20,616 bases of DNA from Bordetella parapertussis. Its GTDB lineage: Bacteria > Pseudomonadota > Gammaproteobacteria > Burkholderiales > SG8-41. Position 1 is the stretch's first letter. Each line of letters opens with the position of its first letter. A model generated the notes under the pieces. That model made no database searches and was not told where the DNA came from. It worked only from the letters and a program-made list of their open reading frames with translations. The stretch spans positions 1 to 20,616 of the forward strand of contig CAMBSS010000072.1 of NCBI GenBank assembly GCA_945870465.1. Reading direction: 5' to 3'. Positions 8,360-20,571 of this stretch are shown here, one piece after another. The position numbers and the translations under genes are program-made.

Positions 8360-8404
8360 GCGCCCATAGCGGCAATGTATGCCTGTAGATATCAAGGCCC
8401 GAAA

Positions 8405-11257
8405 ATGAAACCCGACGATTCCAAGCTCGCCCTGCCGCAACAACAAGTCAGCATCGATGTGCTGCTGGAAAAGTACGCGAAAGGCGACGAGAAGTCCGCT
8501 GACGACGTGCGGCGCCGGGTAGCGCGCGCGCTGGCCGCGGTCGAGCACGATCCCGCGCGCTGGGAGACGGCGTTCTTCGAAGCGCTGGTCGGCGGATTCA
8601 TTCCGGGCGGACGCGTGAATTCCGCCGCCGGCACCGACTTGCAGGCGACCTTGATCAATTGTTTCGTGCAGCCCGTCGGCGACTCGGTTTCCCAAACGGT
8701 TGATGGCCGGCCCGGCATCTACGTCGCGTTGATGGAAGCCGCGGAAACCATGCGGCGCGGCGGCGGCGTCGGCTACGATTTTTCGGCGATCCGGCCGAAA
8801 GGCGCTTACGTGCGCGGCACGCATTCTAGCGCCAGCGGCCCGGTATCCTATATGCGCGTGTTCGACCGCAGTTGCGAGACGGTCGAATCCGCGGGCTCGC
8901 GGCGCGGCGCGCAGATGGGCATATTGCGCTGCGACCACCCCGATATCGAAACCTTCATCCATGCCAAGGACCACGGCGATCTTTCGAACTTCAACGTCAG
9001 CATCGCGGTGACCGACGCGTTCATGCGCGCCGTCGAGACCGACGGCGACTGGGAACTCGTGCACAAGACGCCGCCCGACACGCGCGCCGACGAGCGGCAG
9101 AGGTCCCCGCGCGAGGACGGCGCCTGGGTCTACCGCACGGTGAAGGCGCGCGACCTGTGGCGGCAGGTCATGCAATCGACTTACGATCATGCCGAACCCG
9201 GCATAGTGTTCATCGACCGCATCAACGACGACGATAACCTGTCTTACTGCGAGCAGCTGGCCGCGACCAATCCTTGCGGCGAGCAGCCGCTGCCCGCATA
9301 CGGTTGCTGCTGTCTGGGCAGCATCAATCTCACGCTGTTCGTCACCGACGCTTTCCGCCCCACGGCGAGTTTCGATTTCGCAGCGTTCGCGCGCGTCATT
9401 CACCCGGCAGTGCGCATGCTCGACAACGTGCTCGAAGCCACCGTGTGGCCGCTGCAGCAGCAGCAGGCGGAAGCGCACGCCAAGCGCCGCATCGGGCTCG
9501 GCTTCACCGGCCTCGGCGACACGCTCGTCATGCTTGGCCTCAAATACGATACTGGCGAAGCCCGCAACATGGGCGGCAAAATTGCCGCTTTCATGCGCGA
9601 CGAATCCTATGCGGCATCGCTTGCCATCGCGAAGGAAAAAGGCGCATTTCCGCTGTTCGACGCGCAGCACTACCTGGCCGCGCCGCGCTTCGCCTCGCGC
9701 CTGCCGGCGGCGCTTAAAAAAGAAATCGCCGCGCACGGCGTGCGCAACAGCCACCTCCTGTCGATCGCGCCGACCGGCACCATCTCGCTGGCGTTTGCGG
9801 ACAACGCATCGAACGGCATAGAGCCGCCTTACGCGTGGACTTATCAGCGCAAAAAGCGCATGCCCGATGACACGCATCGCACCTATGACGTCGAAGATCA
9901 CGCGTGGCGCCTGTACCGACACTATGGCGGCGACGTGGAGAAACTGCCCGCGCACTTCATCACCGCGCTCGAAATCTCGGCGCTCGACCACATGCGAATG
10001 GTGGCGGCGATCGCGCCGTTCGTCGATTCGGCCATCAGCAAGACCGTGAACGTGCCGGAGAACTATCCCTACGACCAGTTCGCAGACCTTTACTTCGAAG
10101 CGTGGAAATCGGGACTGAAAGGCATCGCTACTTACCGGCCGAATGCCGTGTTAGGCAGCGTGCTCTCCGTCACTCCGGCCGCGACCGCCGCGACCGCCGA
10201 GCCCAACGACCTCGATACCTCCGATACCGACCGCCGCATCCGGCTCGATGCGGCGCCTGAACCGGCGCTGCTGAGCCTGCGCTGGCCCGGACGCCCCGTG
10301 TTGCCGGACGGCAATCCGTCGTGGACCTACATGGTTGAATCGCCGTTCGGACGTTTCGCCATCTTCGTCGGCCACGTGGAAAACGGCGCGCCCTACCCGT
10401 TCGAAGTGTGGATCAACGGCAACGAACAGCCGCGCGGCCTCGGCGCGATTGCGAAAACGCTGTCGATGGACATGCGCGCTCTCGACGCCCAGTGGCTGCG
10501 CATGAAGCTCGACGTGCTGGCGCGCACCGGCGGCGACGCGTTCGACTGCGCGATGCCGCCGGACGGCAAACCGCTGCGCGTGCCCAGCATCGTTGCCGCG
10601 TTCGCGTGCATCGTGCGCCATCGCGTGGACAAACTCGGCGCGCTCGCCGAAGCCGGCGGCAAATCGCCTGTGCTCAACGCCCTGTTCGCCAGCAAGGAAC
10701 CCAAGACGGGCACCGACGGCACGATGTCGTGGACGGTAGACGTCTACAACCCGAGCTCGGACGACGATTTCGTGCTGATGTTGAAAGAACTGGTGCTGCC
10801 CAATGGCCAGCGCCGGCCCTATTCGATGTGGATGGCAGGCGCCTATCCCAAGGCGCTCGACGGCCTGTGCAAGGTGCTGTCGCTCGACATGCGCGTGATC
10901 GATCCTGCGTGGATCGGCATGAAACTGAGAAAGCTTTTGTCGTACGACGAGCCGCTCGGGGACTTCATGGCGCGCGTGCCGGGCACCGAGCGCCAGGAAA
11001 ATTATCTCAGCACCGTGGCGTATGTCGCGCGCCTCACCATTCATCGCTACGCGCTGCTGGGCATACTCGACGAACGTGGTTTTCCGGTCAACGACATGGG
11101 CGTGCTCGAAATGCCGGACGATGACCATAAGGCGGTCACCTTCGATTACCGTCCGGCACACGGCAAGCTGTGCAAGGAATGCGGCAATTCGGCGGTGATC
11201 AAAAAAGACGGCTGCGAATTCTGCACCGCCTGCGGCGCCATTGGAGCGTGCGGATAG
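8405..11257 (+). CDS. nrdJ: Adenosylcobalamin-dependent (class II) ribonucleotide reductase
   Basis: 950 residues from ATG 8405, preceded by AAGG at a suitable distance; an in-frame ATG at 8375 has no ribosome site. It reduces ribonucleotides to deoxyribonucleotides using a thiyl radical made by B12, without oxygen and without an NrdB partner. Seen: Cys86 in [12 protein letters not shown], the radical/active-site motif Asn289-Cys291-Glu293 in [10 protein letters not shown], a Cys triplet at 301-303, [20 protein letters not shown] and the barrel end [25 protein letters not shown]. After about residue 600 come two TSCPD-type domains (about 640-710 and 775-850), both with the P..lw....p..l.gl.k.LSlDmR pattern. 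The C-terminus has CKEC (923-926) and CEFCTAC (937-943) with Cys949, a zinc-ribbon/redox tail that re-reduces the active site. An FNR-type box upstream suits an oxygen-independent enzyme. Confidence 0.95.
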
Positions 11258-13278: not shown

Positions 13279-14169
13279 CTATTGCGGTCTTTCGCCCCTC
13301 ACCTGAACGCGGTGCATCATGCGCCGCTCGCTGGCATCGAAAGGGTCGCGCCGGTGCACGAGGCAACGATTGTCCCAGATCAGCGTGTCGCCGAGCTGCC
13401 ATTCGTGGCCCCAGGTGAATTCCGGCCGCGACGCCTGCGCCCATAATTCGTCGAGCAGCGCTTCGCTTTCATCCAGCGGCAAGCCAAGGATATAGGCGTT
13501 GCGGCGCCGGCCGAGATACAGCGCCTTCCTGCCGGTGGCCGGATGCACGCGGAACACCGGGTGCCGCGCGCCTGGCGCCGCGCGCGGATCGCTGACTTCC
13601 TTGAAGCCTTTGCGCAACTGTCCGCCGCTGTTGTACGACTCGTCATGGATGATCATTTTGCCGTCGAGCGCGCTGCGCGTTGCCGCTGGCAGCGTGTCGC
13701 ACGCGAGATACTGGTTGGAAAAATACGTGTTGCCGCCGACCGGCGGCAGTTCCAGCGCATGCAGTATTGCGTACGAAACCGGCACGTCCCGGTATGACAT
13801 GTCGGTATGCCAGATCGCCTCGCCGGCACCGAGATTGCCCTTGGGCTGACCATCCTCGATGATGTTGGAGATCACCAGCACGTCGGGATAGGCGTCGATA
13901 TAGGGTTTGCCGATGATGCTCATGCCCGGCGGCTCGAGTTCGCCGAATCGCTTGCCGAAGGCGATCAATTGCGGATCATCGATCGGCTGCCCCCTGACCA
14001 CCACCACCTGGTGGTCGTAAAGGGCCTGCCGGATGCCGTCAAACATCGCGGCGGTGAGGTTGACAAGATCGACGCCGCGCACTTCTGCGCCGCACGCCTT
14101 GCCGGATGGAACAACTTCAACCACTGTGGAACGGGCGCCTGATGGCGCGGAAACCCGGGCTGCTTGCAT
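13279..14169 (-). CDS. TauD/TfdA-family Fe(II)/2-oxoglutarate dioxygenase
   Basis: 296 residues. The iron triad is His121-x-Asp123 (AIWHTDMSYRDVP) and His272 (LVHRRDPFD). Arg283 and Arg287 lie 11 and 15 residues after the last His, as Arg266/Arg270 do after His255 of TauD, and should bind 2-oxoglutarate. DHQVVVVRGQ and GDTLIWDNRCLVH are family blocks. The enzyme hydroxylates a substrate with decarboxylation of 2-oxoglutarate; the substrate is not predictable. Start ATG has an excellent ribosome site (AAGGAGG). It is transcribed away from the GntR gene across a shared 71-base region that carries an operator, so it is likely under that regulator. It ends 18 bases from the convergent prepilin gene without a visible terminator. 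Confidence 0.93.
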   Translation of the reverse strand: MQAARVSAPSGARSTVVEVVPSGKACGAEVRGVDLVNLTAAMFDGIRQALYDHQVVVVRGQPIDDPQLIAFGKRFGELEPPGMSIIGKPYIDAYPDVLVISNIIEDGQPKGNLGAGEAIWHTDMSYRDVPVSYAILHALELPPVGGNTYFSNQYLACDTLPAATRSALDGKMIIHDESYNSGGQLRKGFKEVSDPRAAPGARHPVFRVHPATGRKALYLGRRRNAYILGLPLDESEALLDELWAQASRPEFTWGHEWQLGDTLIWDNRCLVHRRDPFDASERRMMHRVQVRGERPQ

Positions 14170-14190: not shown

Positions 14191-14207
14191 CGTATGATGC
14201 GCATGAC
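14191..14207. promoter_or_regulatory. Predicted GntR operator, copy 1 (dioxygenase/gntR divergent region)
   Basis: CGTATGATGCGCATGAC, with a perfect 8-bp palindrome ATGCGCAT at 14197-14204. It matches copy 2 (16131-16147) at 14 of 17 positions with the same dyad centre. It lies 21 bases upstream of the dioxygenase ATG and 33 upstream of the gntR ATG, so one bound dimer could control both. Confidence 0.6.
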
Positions 14208-14240
14208 TGGTTCACCCATCCCGCATACCGACGACTGCAC

Positions 14241-15002
14241 ATGCCGCGCAAAGCTTTACGCACCCGGCTCGAAATGGACGCTGCCGCACCCCTGTACCGG
14301 CAGGTTGAAAAACAGATCCTGCAATGCCTGGCCGAGGGCGAATGGAAACCGGGCGGCCAGCTGCCGACCGAAAGCCAGCTCGCCGAGCGCTTCGGCGTGG
14401 CGGTGTTCACCATACGCGCCGGCATTGCCGAACTGGTCGCCGCCAATATCCTGGTGCGCAAACAGGGTAAAGGCACTTTCGTTGCGCGTCATACGCGACA
14501 GCGCCAGCGCTACCAGTTTTCGCATGTGTTCGGCAATGACGGCCTGCAGATGTTTCCCGACCGCGAGTTGATATCCTTCAGGCGCGAAACCGCACCGGCG
14601 CCGCTGCAGGAAATTTTGCGGCTGCGGGGAGAAACGCGCCCCGCGATATTCGAAATCGAATGCCTGCTTACCACTGGTCTGCAGCGTGTGGCGGCGATGC
14701 AAATCACGCTTCCCGCAAAAAAATTTGCCGGCCTCACCGCGCGCACCATTCGCGCCAGCGACGAGAACCTCTACGCGGTCTACCAGGACGCGTGCGGCGT
14801 CAACGTCATCCGCATCGAAGAACGGGTGCATGCGGCAGTTGCGGCGTCCGCCATCGCGCGCGCGCTGAAAATTGCACCCGGCAGCCCGCTGCTGCGCATC
14901 GAGCGCATTGCCTACACGTATAACGATGTGCCGGTCGAGTTTCGGGTTCGCCATCTGGATGCCGCCAAATATCACTATCGCCTGGGTGAAGGCGGTCTCT
15001 AG
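14241..15002 (+). CDS. GntR-family transcriptional regulator, HutC/UTRA type
   Basis: 253 residues from ATG 14241. The frame is open further upstream, but that part overlaps the divergent dioxygenase gene and there is no start between it and 14241; ATG 14274 is an alternative. Residues 13-82 are the winged helix: APLYRQVEKQILQCLAEGEW, LPTESQLAERFGVAVFTIRAG, LVRKQGKGTFVARH. Residues about 95-248 are a UTRA ligand domain (RPAIFEIECLL, PGSPLLRIERIAYTYNDVPVEF, the usual C-terminal pattern). Such proteins repress until a small metabolite binds. A palindrome in its own promoter implies autoregulation, and a near-identical one upstream of the Bug gene implies a regulon. No clear Shine-Dalgarno. The stop overlaps that of the enolase-type gene tail to tail. 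Confidence 0.92.
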   Translation: MPRKALRTRLEMDAAAPLYRQVEKQILQCLAEGEWKPGGQLPTESQLAERFGVAVFTIRAGIAELVAANILVRKQGKGTFVARHTRQRQRYQFSHVFGNDGLQMFPDRELISFRRETAPAPLQEILRLRGETRPAIFEIECLLTTGLQRVAAMQITLPAKKFAGLTARTIRASDENLYAVYQDACGVNVIRIEERVHAAVAASAIARALKIAPGSPLLRIERIAYTYNDVPVEFRVRHLDAAKYHYRLGEGGL

Positions 15003-16084
15003 GCGACCGCCACGGGAGCAAAGCGTTCGCTTCGCGTCTCGTGCGCACTCAGCACGGCGCGATCGACCTCCGGCCAATACCCGGGGCGCAGCACAATGCA
15101 ACCGTCTTCGAACGGCAGCGGGTTTGCGAGCAAACGCACCTTGGGCTTGAGAAAACCGTTCATGTCTCCCGCGCGGGCGAGAAAACCGCGCGATACGCAG
15201 GCTTCCACCCAGCACATGAGTTCGGTAGCGACGCCGTCGCCCAGGCAAATATCGAGGCCGCGGCTGCGCGCCAGCGTCATGGCACGTATTGCGCGCTCGA
15301 CGCCGCCGACACGCTTTAACTTGAGCTTTACCAGTTTGACCCCGTCGATGCCGGCCGCCCTGTTTATGTCGGCATCAGTGCGAATCGATTCGTCGAGCAT
15401 CAGGGGCACCGTGGAAACTTTGGCCACTGCGGTATTCGCCGCCCACTCGTCCGCCTCGCACGGCTGCTCGAACAAATCGATGCCGTCCGGGTTGAGGCTG
15501 GATGCAAACCGGCATCCCTGCGCCTCGTCGTAGCCGCGGTTGGCGTCGAGCGTAATGCGCGCGCGCCCCCGTGCCGCCGCCTGGATCAACGCTATGCGCG
15601 CGAGATCGTCGTCGACCTGCCAGCCGACTTTCCCTTTGAACGTGCGGTAGCCCTGCGCAAAGCGGGCATCGACTTCGGCTTCGATGTCCGCCTGGTTGGC
15701 GCCGGCAATCGGCACCAGGAGCGGTATGCGCGTCTCCACCTTGACTGCCAAAGCCGGGTGGCGCTCCAGCACCGCGAGCGCAGTCAAAATCGCACAGGAG
15801 GCGAACGGCGCGCTGTCAACTTCTCCGTCGACCAGCGACTTTGCTTCCGCCACAGTTTTGCCGAGCAGGCGCGCCGCGACTGTCCGGCAAAATTCCCACG
15901 CGCCGTCGGCGGTTTCAGCCGTGGAGCCGGCGGGAATATAAGCTTCGCCCCAGCCAGTATTGCCGTCAGTGTCGCGGACCTCGACAATGATGGGCTCGAA
16001 TTCCGTGTAGGTGCGGAACGACACCCGGTACGGTTTGGTGAGCGGCAATTTAAGCTGGCGCAGCGCGATTTCCTGGATAACCAT
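14999..16084 (-). CDS. Enolase-superfamily enzyme, muconate-lactonizing/dipeptide-epimerase subgroup
   Basis: 361 residues. Capping domain: KPYRVSFRTYTEFEPIIVEV and GWGEAYIPAGSTAET. Barrel: Lys150-x-Lys152 (FKGKVGW), metal ligands Asp180 (ITLDANRGY), Glu206 (LFEQPCE) and Asp231 (LMLDESI), and the opposite-face Lys255 (KLKLKRVGG). Spacing matches the MLE subgroup, which abstracts a proton alpha to a carboxylate and then epimerises, cycloisomerises or dehydrates. The eighth-strand block reads ICLGDGVATELMCWVEA, not the DxD signature I know from Ala-Glu epimerases, so I would not call it a dipeptide epimerase. It diverges from a Bug receptor across operator copy 2 and converges on the GntR gene, sharing CTAG with its stop. 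Confidence 0.88.
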   Translation of the reverse strand: MVIQEIALRQLKLPLTKPYRVSFRTYTEFEPIIVEVRDTDGNTGWGEAYIPAGSTAETADGAWEFCRTVAARLLGKTVAEAKSLVDGEVDSAPFASCAILTALAVLERHPALAVKVETRIPLLVPIAGANQADIEAEVDARFAQGYRTFKGKVGWQVDDDLARIALIQAAARGRARITLDANRGYDEAQGCRFASSLNPDGIDLFEQPCEADEWAANTAVAKVSTVPLMLDESIRTDADINRAAGIDGVKLVKLKLKRVGGVERAIRAMTLARSRGLDICLGDGVATELMCWVEACVSRGFLARAGDMNGFLKPKVRLLANPLPFEDGCIVLRPGYWPEVDRAVLSAHETRSERFAPVAVA

Positions 16085-16110
16085 GGTCTCGTTGGTGCAA
16101 GTGGTAACAG

Positions 16111-16138
16111 TTGATAAAAAAGCTTACTTGCGTATCAT
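16111..16138 (+). promoter_or_regulatory. Sigma-70-type promoter of the Bug receptor gene
   Basis: TTGATA (16111-16116), 16-base spacer, TATCAT (16133-16138): each box has five of six consensus bases. Start expected near 16145, giving a leader of about 55 nt. The -10 box lies inside the predicted operator, which implies repression. Confidence 0.6.
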
Positions 16139-16154
16139 ACGTATGACTTGCAAG
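16127..16154. promoter_or_regulatory. Predicted GntR operator, copy 2 (28-bp interrupted palindrome)
   Basis: CTTGC, 3 bases, TCATACGTATGA (perfect 12-bp palindrome, 16135-16146), 3 bases, GCAAG, all centred at 16140.5. The inner CGTATCATACGTATGAC (16131-16147) matches copy 1 at 14191-14207 in 14 of 17 bases. It lies between the divergent enolase-type and Bug genes and covers the -10 box of the latter. Confidence 0.7.
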
Positions 16155-16198
16155 ATACAACAAATACAACAGTCCGACAACCCGGAGGAGGTTTTTAC

Positions 16199-17155
16199 GT
16201 GAGGTTCATCGTCAATGCGGCCCTGCTCGCTCTCGCTGTGCTGCCCGGTCCGCTGCACGCCGACAACTACCCGACGCGCCCGGTACGCGTCATCATTCCG
16301 TTCGCCGCCGGCGGCACCTTTGATCTCGTCGGACGCGTCGTCGCGCAAAAGCTTGGCGAATTGTGGGGACAACAGGTGGTCGCCGATAACCGGCCCGGCG
16401 GCGCCACGCTGATCGCGTCCGAACTGGTGGCAAAGTCGAACCCGGACGGCCATACGATTTATTTGTCGCCCAATTCACTGGCGGCCAATCCGTCGCTGCA
16501 CGCCAAGTTGCCTTATGCGCAACGCGACCTGCAGCCCGTCGTGCTGGTCGCCGCCCAACCCATGGCGCTCGGCGCCCATCCGACTTTCAAGGCGAAATCG
16601 ATCAAGGAATTGATCGACATGGCGAAGGCGGCACCCGGCGGACTCAATTACGGCACGGCCGGCATCGGCAGCGGCGGCTATCTCGCCGGCGAGATTTTCA
16701 AACTGGCGGCCGGCATCGACGTCGTCCACATCAGCTACAAAGGCGGCAACGTGGCGATGATCGAGGTGATGGCCAACCAGATCAATCTGGTCATGACCGG
16801 GCTGCCCAACCTGCTGCCGCAATACAAGGCCGGCAAACTGAAAATACTGGCGGTCACCGACGGCAAACGTTCGGCCGTCGCCAAGGAGATCCCGGCCATC
16901 AGCGAAACGGTGCCCGGTTATGAATTCCGCAACTGGTTCGGCCTTATCGTGGCGCGCGGCACGCCTGCACCACTCATCCGGCGCATCAACGCCGACGTAA
17001 ACCGGATTCTCGACACCGGCGATACACGCCAACGCCTGCTCGACCAGGGTTTCGAGGTGATCGGCGGAACCACGGAAGAATTCGATCGCGTCATCAGGGA
17101 AGACACGGTAAAGTTCGCGAAAGTGCTCAAGGGCGCGGAGAATCGTGCCAACTGA
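16199..17155 (+). CDS. TctC/Bug-family periplasmic solute receptor
   Basis: 318 residues from GTG 16199. GGAGGAGG (16184-16191) ends 7 bases upstream, and this start gives a good signal peptide (Arg n-region, FIVNAALLALAVLPG, cleavage at LHA). The frame extends upstream to 16148 but into the operator, so the earlier start is rejected. Family marks: NYPTRPVRVIIPFAAGGTFD, GQQVVADNRPGGATLIASE, DVVHISYKGGNVAMIEVM, LKILAVTDGKRSAVAKEIP, FAKVLKGA. It captures an unknown anion. Promoter and operator place it under the same control as the dioxygenase, GntR and enolase-type genes, so its ligand is probably their substrate (inference). No membrane transporter genes are adjacent. Confidence 0.9.
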   Translation: MRFIVNAALLALAVLPGPLHADNYPTRPVRVIIPFAAGGTFDLVGRVVAQKLGELWGQQVVADNRPGGATLIASELVAKSNPDGHTIYLSPNSLAANPSLHAKLPYAQRDLQPVVLVAAQPMALGAHPTFKAKSIKELIDMAKAAPGGLNYGTAGIGSGGYLAGEIFKLAAGIDVVHISYKGGNVAMIEVMANQINLVMTGLPNLLPQYKAGKLKILAVTDGKRSAVAKEIPAISETVPGYEFRNWFGLIVARGTPAPLIRRINADVNRILDTGDTRQRLLDQGFEVIGGTTEEFDRVIREDTVKFAKVLKGAENRAN

Positions 17156-17548: not shown

Positions 17549-18553
17549 ATGGCCAAAACCAGGCGCGTCGACGTGCACAGCCACGTGTTCCCGCGCGAAA
17601 TGTTCGACCTGATACGGGCGCGCCCGCACGACTACGGCATGCATTTCGCGAATACGCCGGCCGGCGAGAAACTCCTGCGCGAAGACGGCCATGCGACTCC
17701 GCTGTTCGACGAATTTTTCGATGCCGATGCAAAGGTCGCGGGCATGGACCGCAAGGGCCTCGACATTTCGGTGATCTCGCCGACGCCGATGATTTATTTT
17801 TACAATCTCGATGCCGACCGCGCGGCCACCGCAACGCGCGTGACCAACGACGGTGTGGCCAACATGGTGGCGAAACGTTCCGACCGCTTGCGCGGTATGG
17901 CGACGCTGCCGATGCAGAACACGGACGCCGCGGTTGCTGAACTCGAGCGCGTCGTCAAAGAACACGGTTTCCGCGCAATTGAACTCGGCTGCACTATAGT
18001 CGGCGATCAGCTTGCCGAAAAACGCTACCGCCCGGTGTTGAAACGCGCGCAGGAGCTGAAGGTTTTCATTTTCACGCACCCGCATTTCACGGGCGACCGC
18101 TGCGGCCTTGAACCCTACTATCTCTCCAATCTGGTCGGCTTTCCGCTGGATACGGTGACCATGGCGGCGCACCTGATGTTCAGCGGCGCACTCGACGAGT
18201 TGCCGGACCTGCGGATCGTGCTCGCCCACGGCGGCGGCTACCTGCCGTACCAGATCGGCCGGCTTGCCCATGGCTACGCAGTGCGCAAAGAGCCGCACGC
18301 ACATAAAGCATCATCGCCGCGCGACCTGCTGCGCCGTTTTTACTTCGACGCGCTTACCCACGACGACAAAGCCCTGGCTTTTCTGATCGAGCAGGTCGGC
18401 GCGGACCGCGTGACCCTCGGCACCGATGCGCCGTTCGACATGGGCGAGGAAAATCCGCTCGCGCGACTCGACACCGTGCCGGGGTTGAGCGCCGCCGACC
18501 GCGATCGCGTGCTCGGATTGAACGCCTTGGGACTGCTCGGCGAGAACGCTTAG
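17549..18553 (+). CDS. Amidohydrolase-superfamily protein, ACMSD-like
   Basis: 334 residues, ATG with GAAGGAAA seven to eight bases upstream. Metal site: His10-x-His12 (VDVHSHVFP), His177 (FIFTHPHF), His227 (IVLAHGGGYLPYQIGRL) and Asp293 (LGTDAPFDMG), the arrangement of aminocarboxymuconate-semialdehyde decarboxylase and related gamma-resorcylate/5-carboxyvanillate decarboxylases and hydrolases. Conserved framework: FDADAKVAGMDRKGLDISVISPTP and RLRGMATLPMQNTDAAVAELERVV. Likely a Zn/Mn-dependent decarboxylase or hydrolase of an aromatic or dienoic acid; the exact substrate cannot be read. It lies 33 bases after the DUF3301 gene and may belong with the upstream carboxylate module, though no operator copy was found in front of it. 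Confidence 0.9.
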   Translation: MAKTRRVDVHSHVFPREMFDLIRARPHDYGMHFANTPAGEKLLREDGHATPLFDEFFDADAKVAGMDRKGLDISVISPTPMIYFYNLDADRAATATRVTNDGVANMVAKRSDRLRGMATLPMQNTDAAVAELERVVKEHGFRAIELGCTIVGDQLAEKRYRPVLKRAQELKVFIFTHPHFTGDRCGLEPYYLSNLVGFPLDTVTMAAHLMFSGALDELPDLRIVLAHGGGYLPYQIGRLAHGYAVRKEPHAHKASSPRDLLRRFYFDALTHDDKALAFLIEQVGADRVTLGTDAPFDMGEENPLARLDTVPGLSAADRDRVLGLNALGLLGENA

Positions 18554-18589
18554 CCTGCCCTACTCGCCCTTGATGCCGGCCCGCCGCCC

Positions 18590-18955
18590 TTGTACGGAAT
18601 ATGCACCCAGCGGGGTGCCCGTCATCTACTGATAATGACGCAGGAACTGATCGCGAACATGCTGGGAGTGCGCCGTGAAGGCGTGACCGAAGCTGCCGGC
18701 AAATTGCAGGTCGACGGCGTGATTCAGTACAGCCGCGGCCACATCAAGGTGCTGGCCCGCGGAAAATTGGAAGCGCGCGTCTGCGAATGCTACCAAGTGG
18801 TGAAACAAGAGTTCGGCCGCTTGCTGGTCTATTGCGGCGACGTGGCTTTCGTTGCGGCACTTAGGTCGTGCATAAAGCGCGCGTTTGCCGACCATGGGCC
18901 CGTGGCCAGCCGAAAAAACGAAACCAGAGTTGGGAAATCGACATTAAGGCGTTGA
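18590..18955 (+). pseudogene. Remnant of a Crp/Fnr-type regulator (HTH_Crp part only)
   Basis: Only about 65 residues are recognisable (roughly 18632-18825): MTQELIANMLGVRREGVTEAA is the Crp-type helix-turn-helix, followed by KLQVDGVIQYSRGHIKVL and LEARVCECYQVVKQEFGRLL, the usual C-terminus of this Burkholderiales regulator family. The roughly 150-residue cyclic-nucleotide-like sensor domain is missing; sequence before it (MYGICTQRGAR) and after LLVY is unrelated. Full family members are about 230 residues. ATG 18635 could start a stand-alone DNA-binding peptide, but no ribosome site precedes it. Its tail overlaps the -35 box of the glycine-riboswitch promoter. Most likely a decayed fragment left by a rearrangement. 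Confidence 0.75.
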
Positions 18956-19250: not shown

Positions 19251-19260
19251 CTTGTCAATC

Positions 19261-20571
19261 ATGCAATCAATTGCTGTAATTGGCGCCGGCATTACCGGCG
19301 TCACGACCGCTTACGCCCTCGCAAAGCGCGGCTACAAAGTGACGATCTTCGATAAGAATCGATACGCCGCCATGGAGACATCGTTTGCCAACGGTGGGCA
19401 GTTGTCGGCGTCCAATGCGGAAGTGTGGAATCACTGGTCAACAGTCTTCAAAGGCCTCAAGTGGATGCTTAAGGGGAATGCTCCTCTCTTGATCAATCCA
19501 AAGCCGAGCTGGCACAAAATCTCCTGGTTTTTGGAGTTCATGGCCGCCATACCCCAGTACCGCAACAACACCATCCAGACCGCACGCCTTGCTATTGCGG
19601 CGCGCGACCATCTTTTTGCGTGGGCGTCCCGGGAAGGCATCGAGTTTGACGCCCGGCAAGAGGGTATTCTTCATTTCTATCGGGATAAGGGCGCGTATGA
19701 CCACGCCGCGACAGTCTCGGAATTACTGGCCAAAGGGGGCCTCAAACGGCGGCCCGTGACGCCGGAAGAGATGCAGGCCATAGAGCCGACGTTGAAGGGC
19801 GACTATTACGGGGGGTTCTACACCCCGAGCGATTCCTCGGGGGATATTCACAAGTTCACGCAGGGTCTGGCAGACGCCGGGGCAAGGTGTGGCGTGCAGA
19901 ACCTGTTCGAACATCAAATCCACACTGTAAAAGAGAGCGGCGATGGAGTGCGTATTTCCGGAACCTGCCGCCAGATTGCGTTTGACTACTCCTTTGATGG
20001 CCTGGTTGTCTGTGCAGGTATCGTTAGCCGTTCGATTGCGGCCTCGCTTGGTGATCGGTTGAATGTTTATCCCGTCAAAGGATATTCCATTACCGTTAAC
20101 CTGCTCGACCTATCCAGTCAGGCAGCGGCTCCGACAGTCAGCCTGCTTGATGACGCAACAAAGCTTGTAGCCAGTCGCCTTGGTGTAGACCGATTCAGAG
20201 TCGCAGGTAGCGCGGAATTCAATGGCGCCAACAATGACATTCGCGCCGATCGAATTCGGCCGCTTCTGGACTGGGTACATGGCTGCTTCCCTGAAATTAA
20301 TACTCGCAGCGTTGTTCCGTGGGCCGGTTTGCGCCCCATGATGCCGAATCTCATGCCGCGCGTCGGCCCAGGAAAATCGCCACGTGTTTTCTACAATACG
20401 GGGCATGGACATTTGGGCTGGACGCTTTCCGCGGCTACGGCAGAACTCGTCGCCGGCATGGTGGACCAAAGGGCTCGAGGGGCCCGCACGTTTGTCGACA
20501 TACCGGTTGCTTCAAAGGCCAAGTCTCCTGACATGGGCGGCGGCCGCGCGAAGCCGGACCTTGTCTCATAG
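19261..20571 (+). CDS. dadA: D-amino acid dehydrogenase (DadA-like FAD oxidoreductase)
   Basis: 436 residues from ATG 19261, GGAG 10 bases upstream; the in-frame TTG 19252 is less likely. FAD site: IAVIGAGITGVTTAYAL with Gly8-x-Gly10-x-x-Gly13 and Asp31 at the end of strand two. Then ETSFANGGQLSASNAEVWNH, a DadA signature, YTPSDSSGDIHKFTQGLA, LVVCAGIVSRSIAASLG, YPVKGYSITV and the C-terminal NTGHGHLGWTLSAATAELVAGMV. It oxidatively deaminates a D-amino acid or glycine and passes electrons to the membrane quinone pool, acting on the inner face. The glycine riboswitch implies induction by glycine, so glycine or a D-amino acid metabolised with it may be the true substrate. Codon use is less GC-biased than in the other genes here, consistent with transfer. 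No racemase gene follows before the window ends; 20572-20616 shows nothing. Confidence 0.92.
   Translation: MQSIAVIGAGITGVTTAYALAKRGYKVTIFDKNRYAAMETSFANGGQLSASNAEVWNHWSTVFKGLKWMLKGNAPLLINPKPSWHKISWFLEFMAAIPQYRNNTIQTARLAIAARDHLFAWASREGIEFDARQEGILHFYRDKGAYDHAATVSELLAKGGLKRRPVTPEEMQAIEPTLKGDYYGGFYTPSDSSGDIHKFTQGLADAGARCGVQNLFEHQIHTVKESGDGVRISGTCRQIAFDYSFDGLVVCAGIVSRSIAASLGDRLNVYPVKGYSITVNLLDLSSQAAAPTVSLLDDATKLVASRLGVDRFRVAGSAEFNGANNDIRADRIRPLLDWVHGCFPEINTRSVVPWAGLRPMMPNLMPRVGPGKSPRVFYNTGHGHLGWTLSAATAELVAGMVDQRARGARTFVDIPVASKAKSPDMGGGRAKPDLVS

Follow-up and report, generated by a model that had tools for sequence, protein, structure and literature searches.

Conserved predicted operators connect a dioxygenase, an enolase-superfamily enzyme and a Bug receptor with a HutC-type regulator in a putative local regulon

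Regulators of the HutC subfamily, among them NagR/YvoA, HutC and PhnF, combine a winged HTH with a UTRA domain and control local regulons through palindromic sites in their own and in target promoters, as described in the accessible part of PMC4494728. According to the same text, the operators usually show the spacing GT-N4-AC, with published exceptions, and sites of the wider GntR family carry extra boxes 7–12 nt from the centre. For bidirectional promoters, in which one symmetric −10 element is read on both strands, the commonest distance between the start sites is 18 bp, and control of such promoters was entirely unknown before that study, as its abstract states (PMC12825309). The cases in the accessible part of that article are controlled by activators or by SoxR, and AcrR is named as a repressor at acrA/acrR. 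In the literature searched, where most subscription journals were lacking, no unit composed of the genes presented below is described.

The window, i.e. the whole analysed stretch of 20,616 nucleotides, contains four genes between positions 13279 and 17155, which are arranged in two divergent pairs. A TauD/TfdA-family 2-oxoglutarate dioxygenase gene (tauD, 13279–14169, − strand; PF02668, 221.5 bits, cut-off 27) is paired with gntR (14241–15002, + strand), which encodes a HutC-type regulator with winged HTH (PF00392, 64.3 bits, cut-off 27) and UTRA domain (PF07702, 74.8 bits, cut-off 23.8). The second pair consists of a gene for an enolase-superfamily protein of the muconate-lactonizing subgroup (MLE, 14999–16084, − strand; PF13378, 109.8 bits, cut-off 29.4) and of bug (16199–17155, + strand), encoding a periplasmic receptor of the tripartite-transporter type (TctC/Bug, 318 residues; PF03401, 191.5 bits, cut-off 27). 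Between the two pairs, gntR and MLE run towards each other, with an overlap of 4 bases. The start of bug is best placed at the GTG at 16199, with the ribosome-binding site GGAGGAGG at 16184–16191 on the + strand. Re-reading of the sequence and a profile search left the gene calls, letters and coordinates given for this region in the initial annotation unchanged. An amidohydrolase gene at 17549–18553 was rejected as a member of the unit, since it is next to the cassette only in L001, and L003–L006 lack it there.

Each of the two divergent gaps contains one copy of a common motif. Site 1, CGTATGATGCGCATGAC at 14191–14207, is situated between tauD and gntR, and site 2, CGTATCATACGTATGAC at 16131–16147, between MLE and bug; with 3 mismatches between them, the reported identity of 14 of 17 bases is correct. 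In order to score the sites, a weight matrix of 16 columns was built exclusively from the sites of other species, leaving out the window, with 60 dinucleotide shuffles as control. Site 2 (30.6 bits) and site 1 (22.6 bits) gave the top two scores in the window, followed by site 2 read from the opposite strand (21.8 bits), and the highest score over all shuffles was 14.5 bits. Together with the counts of core sites in ten genomes presented below, these scores rule out a chance similarity of the two sites.

A scan of species-representative genomes for the regulator retrieved L001 with 98% protein identity, L002 with 66% and L003–L006 with 60–62%. The L001 stretch is 95.5% identical to the window over 7,471 columns. 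Both the order of the four genes and the two sites are retained in L001 and in L003–L006, while L002 stops at a contig edge. Within the family of G003, MLE is present in 22 of 74 genomes, in ten of them with at least 57% identity; retrieval by means of MLE added four genomes (G008, G010, G019 and G026) in which cassette and sites are the same. The counterpart of site 1 is kept in all ten genomes carrying this gntR, with one core change in G001 and G010, and the counterpart of site 2 in all nine having a divergent MLE/bug gap, reading TGTATCATACATATGA in G008, which confirms that the two sites are real and conserved. The ten genomes include several close relatives and thus do not represent ten independent cases. 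Between six representative lineages, the 16-bp site has a mean identity of 92%, compared with 25–56% for the surrounding stretches. Among 399 genomes drawn from the order, MLE was detected at E ≤ 1e-100 in five, two of them new (G212 and G139), and the stretches fetched from these two contain no core site. The conservation of cassette, sites and promoter spacing is established by these comparisons, and the cassette appears to be a genuine, conserved local regulon, with refined operator and predicted binding, in a group of mostly uncultured bacteria.

The initial annotation had assigned both sites a common dyad centre, TSATRCGYATGA. This dyad exists, but an alignment of 21 sites (two from the window and 19 from nine genomes) revealed it to be the second-best symmetry. 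Best kept is an 11-bp odd palindrome, CGTAT-S-ATACG, which is centred 4.5 bp further left and accompanied by one half-site 9 bp further on. For the inner six pairs, complementarity amounts to 0.87 for CGTATSATACG versus 0.79 for the earlier dyad and at most 0.55 for other centres, whereby the former is favoured because nearly all sites were located and aligned through it. Its inner five pairs are complementary in 20–21 of the 21 sites, with TCATRCGYATGA ranking second, which weakens the earlier dyad as the sole one. At the MLE/bug site of G008 both outer dyad bases are changed and the palindrome is retained; in G005 and G026 a single change disrupts the second dyad only. Of the two predicted operator copies in the window, both on the + strand, copy 2 (CGTATCATACGTATGA, 16131–16146) has a perfect core dyad (16131–16141) and a likewise perfect earlier dyad (16135–16146). 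Copy 1 (CGTATGATGCGCATGA, 14191–14206) has one mismatch in its core dyad (14191–14201), and the earlier dyad is located at 14195–14206. The orientation of the tauD/gntR site is the same in the window, G002 and G008, and opposite in G003 and its close relatives. A 28-bp interrupted palindrome that had been proposed around site 2 is present at 16127–16154; its outer arms, CTTGC and GCAAG, are missing from the sites of the other species, however, and it is therefore ruled out as the operator.

With its N-terminal winged HTH (PF00392) and C-terminal UTRA domain (PF07702), the regulator displays the domain composition of the HutC subfamily, and like the known local regulons it is combined with palindromic sites in its own and in putative target promoters, with divergent gene pairs and with an extra half-site, the 9-base distance of which fits the 7–12 nt described for GntR-family sites (accessible part of PMC4494728). 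It stays below the equivalog cut-offs of PhnF (101 of 157 bits) and HutC (86 of 220 bits). The best-kept dyad corresponds to GT-N5-AC, whereas the known HutC regulons usually show GT-N4-AC, a spacing which is typical of, though not strictly defining for, the subfamily. A different regulator encoded elsewhere might bind the sites, with gntR being a mere neighbour. The LPSER motif is typical of HutC-subfamily members, and absence of its Arg from the regulator of the window lends some weight to this reading. So does the GT-N5-AC spacing, which is unusual in the subfamily as far as the accessible part of PMC4494728 goes. Nevertheless, a foreign regulator is quite improbable: site and regulator occur together in ten of ten genomes, the exact core dyad is found in none of the 17 MLE loci lacking this regulator on the stretch (a one-mismatch version in one), and related sites are also located near the more distant homologues of the regulator in L008, L009 and L013.

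In the aligned cassette regulators the recognition-helix region reads GVAVFT or GVAIFT, and it is different in the distant ones. L009 contains TCATACGTATGA and TCATGCGTATGA with longer flanking symmetry, and L008 and L013 contain TCATTCGTATGA; judged from these letters, the dyad of the initial annotation may be the main one in the more distant regulators. At L009:5982 and L009:7805, near a GntR protein of 42% identity, TCATRCGYATGA is in each case enclosed by a longer palindrome of another kind, which suggests that related regulators have operator variants of their own.

Site 2 was reported to overlap a TATCAT −10 box, and this hexamer is indeed found at 16133–16138. Moreover, TATCATA (16133–16139) forms a candidate −10 element shared by both strands, reading TATCAT towards bug and TATGAT towards MLE (16134–16139), so that the two hexamers overlap by five bases beneath the core dyad. 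Candidate −35 elements are TTGATA (16111–16116, + strand) for bug, 16 bp before TATCAT, and TTGTTG (CAACAA on the + strand, 16158–16163, − strand) for MLE, 18 bp from the −10. In all nine MLE/bug stretches, comprising the window and eight genomes, a TTG precedes TATCAT by 16–18 bp in the direction of bug and TATGAT by 17–18 bp in the direction of MLE. Elsewhere in these stretches this two-sided pattern occurs in 8 of 531 cases, only TTG being demanded of the −35 in this count. Thus, all nine stretches contain a −10 that can be read in either direction and is flanked by two −35-like elements. The predicted start sites, 7 bp beyond each −10, are at about 16145 (+) and 16127 (−) and hence 18 bp apart, which is the spacing most common at bidirectional promoters in the accessible part of PMC12825309. 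In contrast to the cases presented there, the predicted operator is centred on the shared −10.

These features would also be expected if the conserved element were solely a symmetric bidirectional promoter and no operator, and the TATCATA within the core, flanked on either side by TTG at −35 distance in nine of nine stretches, speaks for such a reading. We consider it very improbable, since not only the −10 but also the outer C and G of the dyad as well as YATGA are conserved, and since further copies of the element are located at tauD, at an operon of G002 and at a second tauD in G008; these copies are not two-way promoters or lie past a better −10. The MLE/bug gap is likely to be a bidirectional promoter whose axis carries a repressor operator, and it represents a naturally occurring candidate for this type of promoter under the control of a repressor. 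The bioO operator of BirA is one operator for two overlapping opposed promoters; the arrangement predicted at MLE/bug resembles it in the use of one operator for two opposed promoters and differs in regulator family and promoter overlap.

At the tauD/gntR gap, TTG-17-TATGAT is situated beneath the operator in the direction of tauD in seven of ten stretches (G003, G004, G005, G006, G010, G019 and G026) and is absent from the window, G002 and G008; no good tauD promoter was found in this gap of the window. In G003–G006, G019 and G026, a TATAAT-type promoter of gntR lies beyond the operator. In these six relatives gntR thus seems to have its own promoter outside the operator, and the regulator may or may not repress its own gene.

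Comparison between genomes provides good support for a predicted co-regulation of tauD, MLE and bug by one HutC-type regulator; this part of the one-regulon reading of the initial annotation stands, in contrast to its dyad centre and outer arms. Probably, the cassette is a local, substrate-induced regulon, in which GntR binds a composite operator, CGTATSATACGYATGA, in both divergent promoter regions and represses until a ligand is present. From the arrangement of genes and sites we infer binding, repression, an effector and all of the chemistry as follows. The HutC-type protein would occupy the operator in the two promoter regions and block RNA polymerase. At MLE/bug, where the operator is centred on the two-way −10 TATCATA, one dimer would close both promoters; at tauD the operator would overlie a −10-like TATGAT at proper distance from TTG (seven of ten stretches). 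A small molecule, probably substrate or product, would bind the UTRA domain and end the block. Bug would then capture the compound, the enolase-type enzyme would take off and return a proton beside a carboxylate, and the TauD-type dioxygenase would oxidise the product. A stricter version, in which repressor operator and bidirectional promoter share one axis and a GT-N5-AC dimer upon the shared −10 silences uptake and metabolism symmetrically, is conceivable, although the odds are somewhat against it. If true, it would constitute a simple and conserved natural example of how a bidirectional promoter is controlled, linked to a pathway of racemase plus dioxygenase that has not been described.

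Rearranged loci provide a further view on the relation between operator and genes. Among the variant loci (REARRANGEMENTS), the tauD/gntR pair of G002 retains its site, and MLE and bug are shifted into an operon, where bug (68%) and MLE (57%) are at the end of a + strand run encoding a metallo-hydrolase, a ligase, three 2-oxoacid oxidoreductase subunits, a GltD-like flavoprotein, Bug, a GST and MLE. In front of this operon lies TTGACA-17-TATACT, followed by a perfect site reading GCGTATCATACGTATGATAC. In G008, a second tauD (64%) has an exact site of its own. Of 17 non-cassette loci with an MLE paralogue, 9 encode TauD at a distance of no more than about 4 kb from it, and without a site the genes are consecutive on one strand in L195 (MLE-TauD-Bug) and in L196 (TauD-MLE-Bug, with only 25% identity of Bug). 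Taken together, the operator accompanies the genes when they move, and the genes tend to cluster even without it, which supports a common function of TauD, MLE and Bug, as predicted from gene context, where the operator is absent. In turn, the operator predicts further partners (in G002 the metallo-hydrolase, ligase, 2-oxoacid oxidoreductase and GST) and thereby narrows the chemistry. MLE paralogues with 40–45% identity in L154, L158, L159 and L160 are found together with TauD and a member of the acylating aldehyde dehydrogenase family, and these groups adjoin housekeeping genes of the dapA/bamC type. At other MLE loci, e.g. L156, methylaspartate mutase E is encoded nearby.

The exact core CGTATSATACG occurs 21 times in the ten genomes, 18 times within this gene cluster (including the G002 copy before the MLE/bug operon, which shares its contig with gntR at a distance of 16 kb) and three times elsewhere; the reversed pattern, used as control, occurs twice. 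The random scatter and absence from syntenic relatives that would speak against a regulon were thus not observed for the exact core. The 14-mer CGTATSATRCGYAT is found exactly on cassette contigs only (G001–G006). With one mismatch it occurs at 22 places outside the cassette contigs of these genomes, compared with 5 for the control, and additional regulon members may be among them. Of 369 genomes of the class, 4 contain the 16-mer CGTATSATACGYATSA, among them G003. One exact core site outside the cluster, the perfect CGTATCATACG at L188:6013–6023 (G001:C407), is located between an amidohydrolase and a dienelactone hydrolase gene; it lacks the third half-site and is a possible extra member of the regulon in the closest genome. 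The other two are a G008 copy inside an ORF of 897 residues and a site in G010.

The predicted structure of MLE (pLDDT 94.5) matches enolase-type folds, and Lys150, Lys152, Lys253 and Lys255 as well as Asp180, Glu206 and Asp231 are invariant in 41 sequences, giving the KxK motif, further lysine and three acidic metal ligands of MLE-type members of the enolase superfamily. Identity to muconate and chloromuconate cycloisomerases and to N-acylamino acid racemases (1nu5, 2p88) is about 23–24%, and no cut-off of a known family is reached. The dioxygenase combines PF02668 with His121, Asp123 and His272, which we take to be the iron ligands (HxD...H) of the TauD/TfdA superfamily; among 14 aligned TauD proteins Asp123 is invariant and both His are retained in all but one paralogue. 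Its best PDB sequence match is a distant one, the (R)-phenoxypropionate dioxygenase of the same family (6d1o, E 5e-43). The bug product, which has the PF03401 domain of Bug/TctC receptors, matches best to Bug proteins and to a terephthalate-binding protein in the PDB. As a small putative regulon that is conserved and amenable to testing, the locus is of interest for enzymes whose sequences do not reveal the substrate.

As to function, the preferred guess, a tentative one, is that MLE acts as racemase or epimerase of a 2-substituted carboxylate, whereby a stereoselective TauD-type dioxygenase could use both isomers. A pathway for degradation of an organosulfonate would agree with the TauE/SafE exporter and the ComA-family protein encoded near tauD of G002 and with the acylating aldehyde dehydrogenase of L158 (745 bits, sulfoacetaldehyde-dehydrogenase cut-off 600), the gene of which overlaps the TauD gene beside an MLE paralogue. 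It is unlikely, however, since the dioxygenase misses the taurine-dioxygenase cut-off (NF007104, 160.2 versus 313 bits), has Glu at the position aligned with the His of RFGDLHIHP in TauD, which has a sulfonate-related role there, and since sulfur-linked genes are not found beside the cassette in L003–L006. Alternatively, MLE could be a cycloisomerase in a pathway for an aromatic or muconate-type acid, as chloromuconate and muconate cycloisomerases are among its top fold matches, the operon of G002 further comprises the ligase, which has a PF14535 domain, the 2-oxoacid oxidoreductase and the GST, and the terephthalate-binding protein is among the best matches of Bug. This assignment is doubtful as well, given the 104.1 bits of MLE compared with 334.95 required for muconate/chloromuconate cycloisomerases (TIGR02534), the low identity to those structures and the lack of a recognised ring-cleaving dioxygenase within the cassette.

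Outside of the cassette, collinearity of the window with the closest genome (L121) is lost at 18580. Positions 18578–18635 pair with L121 8879–8823, and about 386 bp, located at the start of the Bug gene of the relative, are absent from the window. By eye, the ORF at 18590–18955 resembles a CRP/FNR regulator reduced to its C-terminal HTH half, with the N-terminal part missing; it adjoins a DAO-type FAD oxidoreductase gene at 19252–20571. Upstream, at 8375–11257, the window encodes a B12-dependent ribonucleotide reductase of 960 residues, of which the recognised reductase part stops near residue 591.
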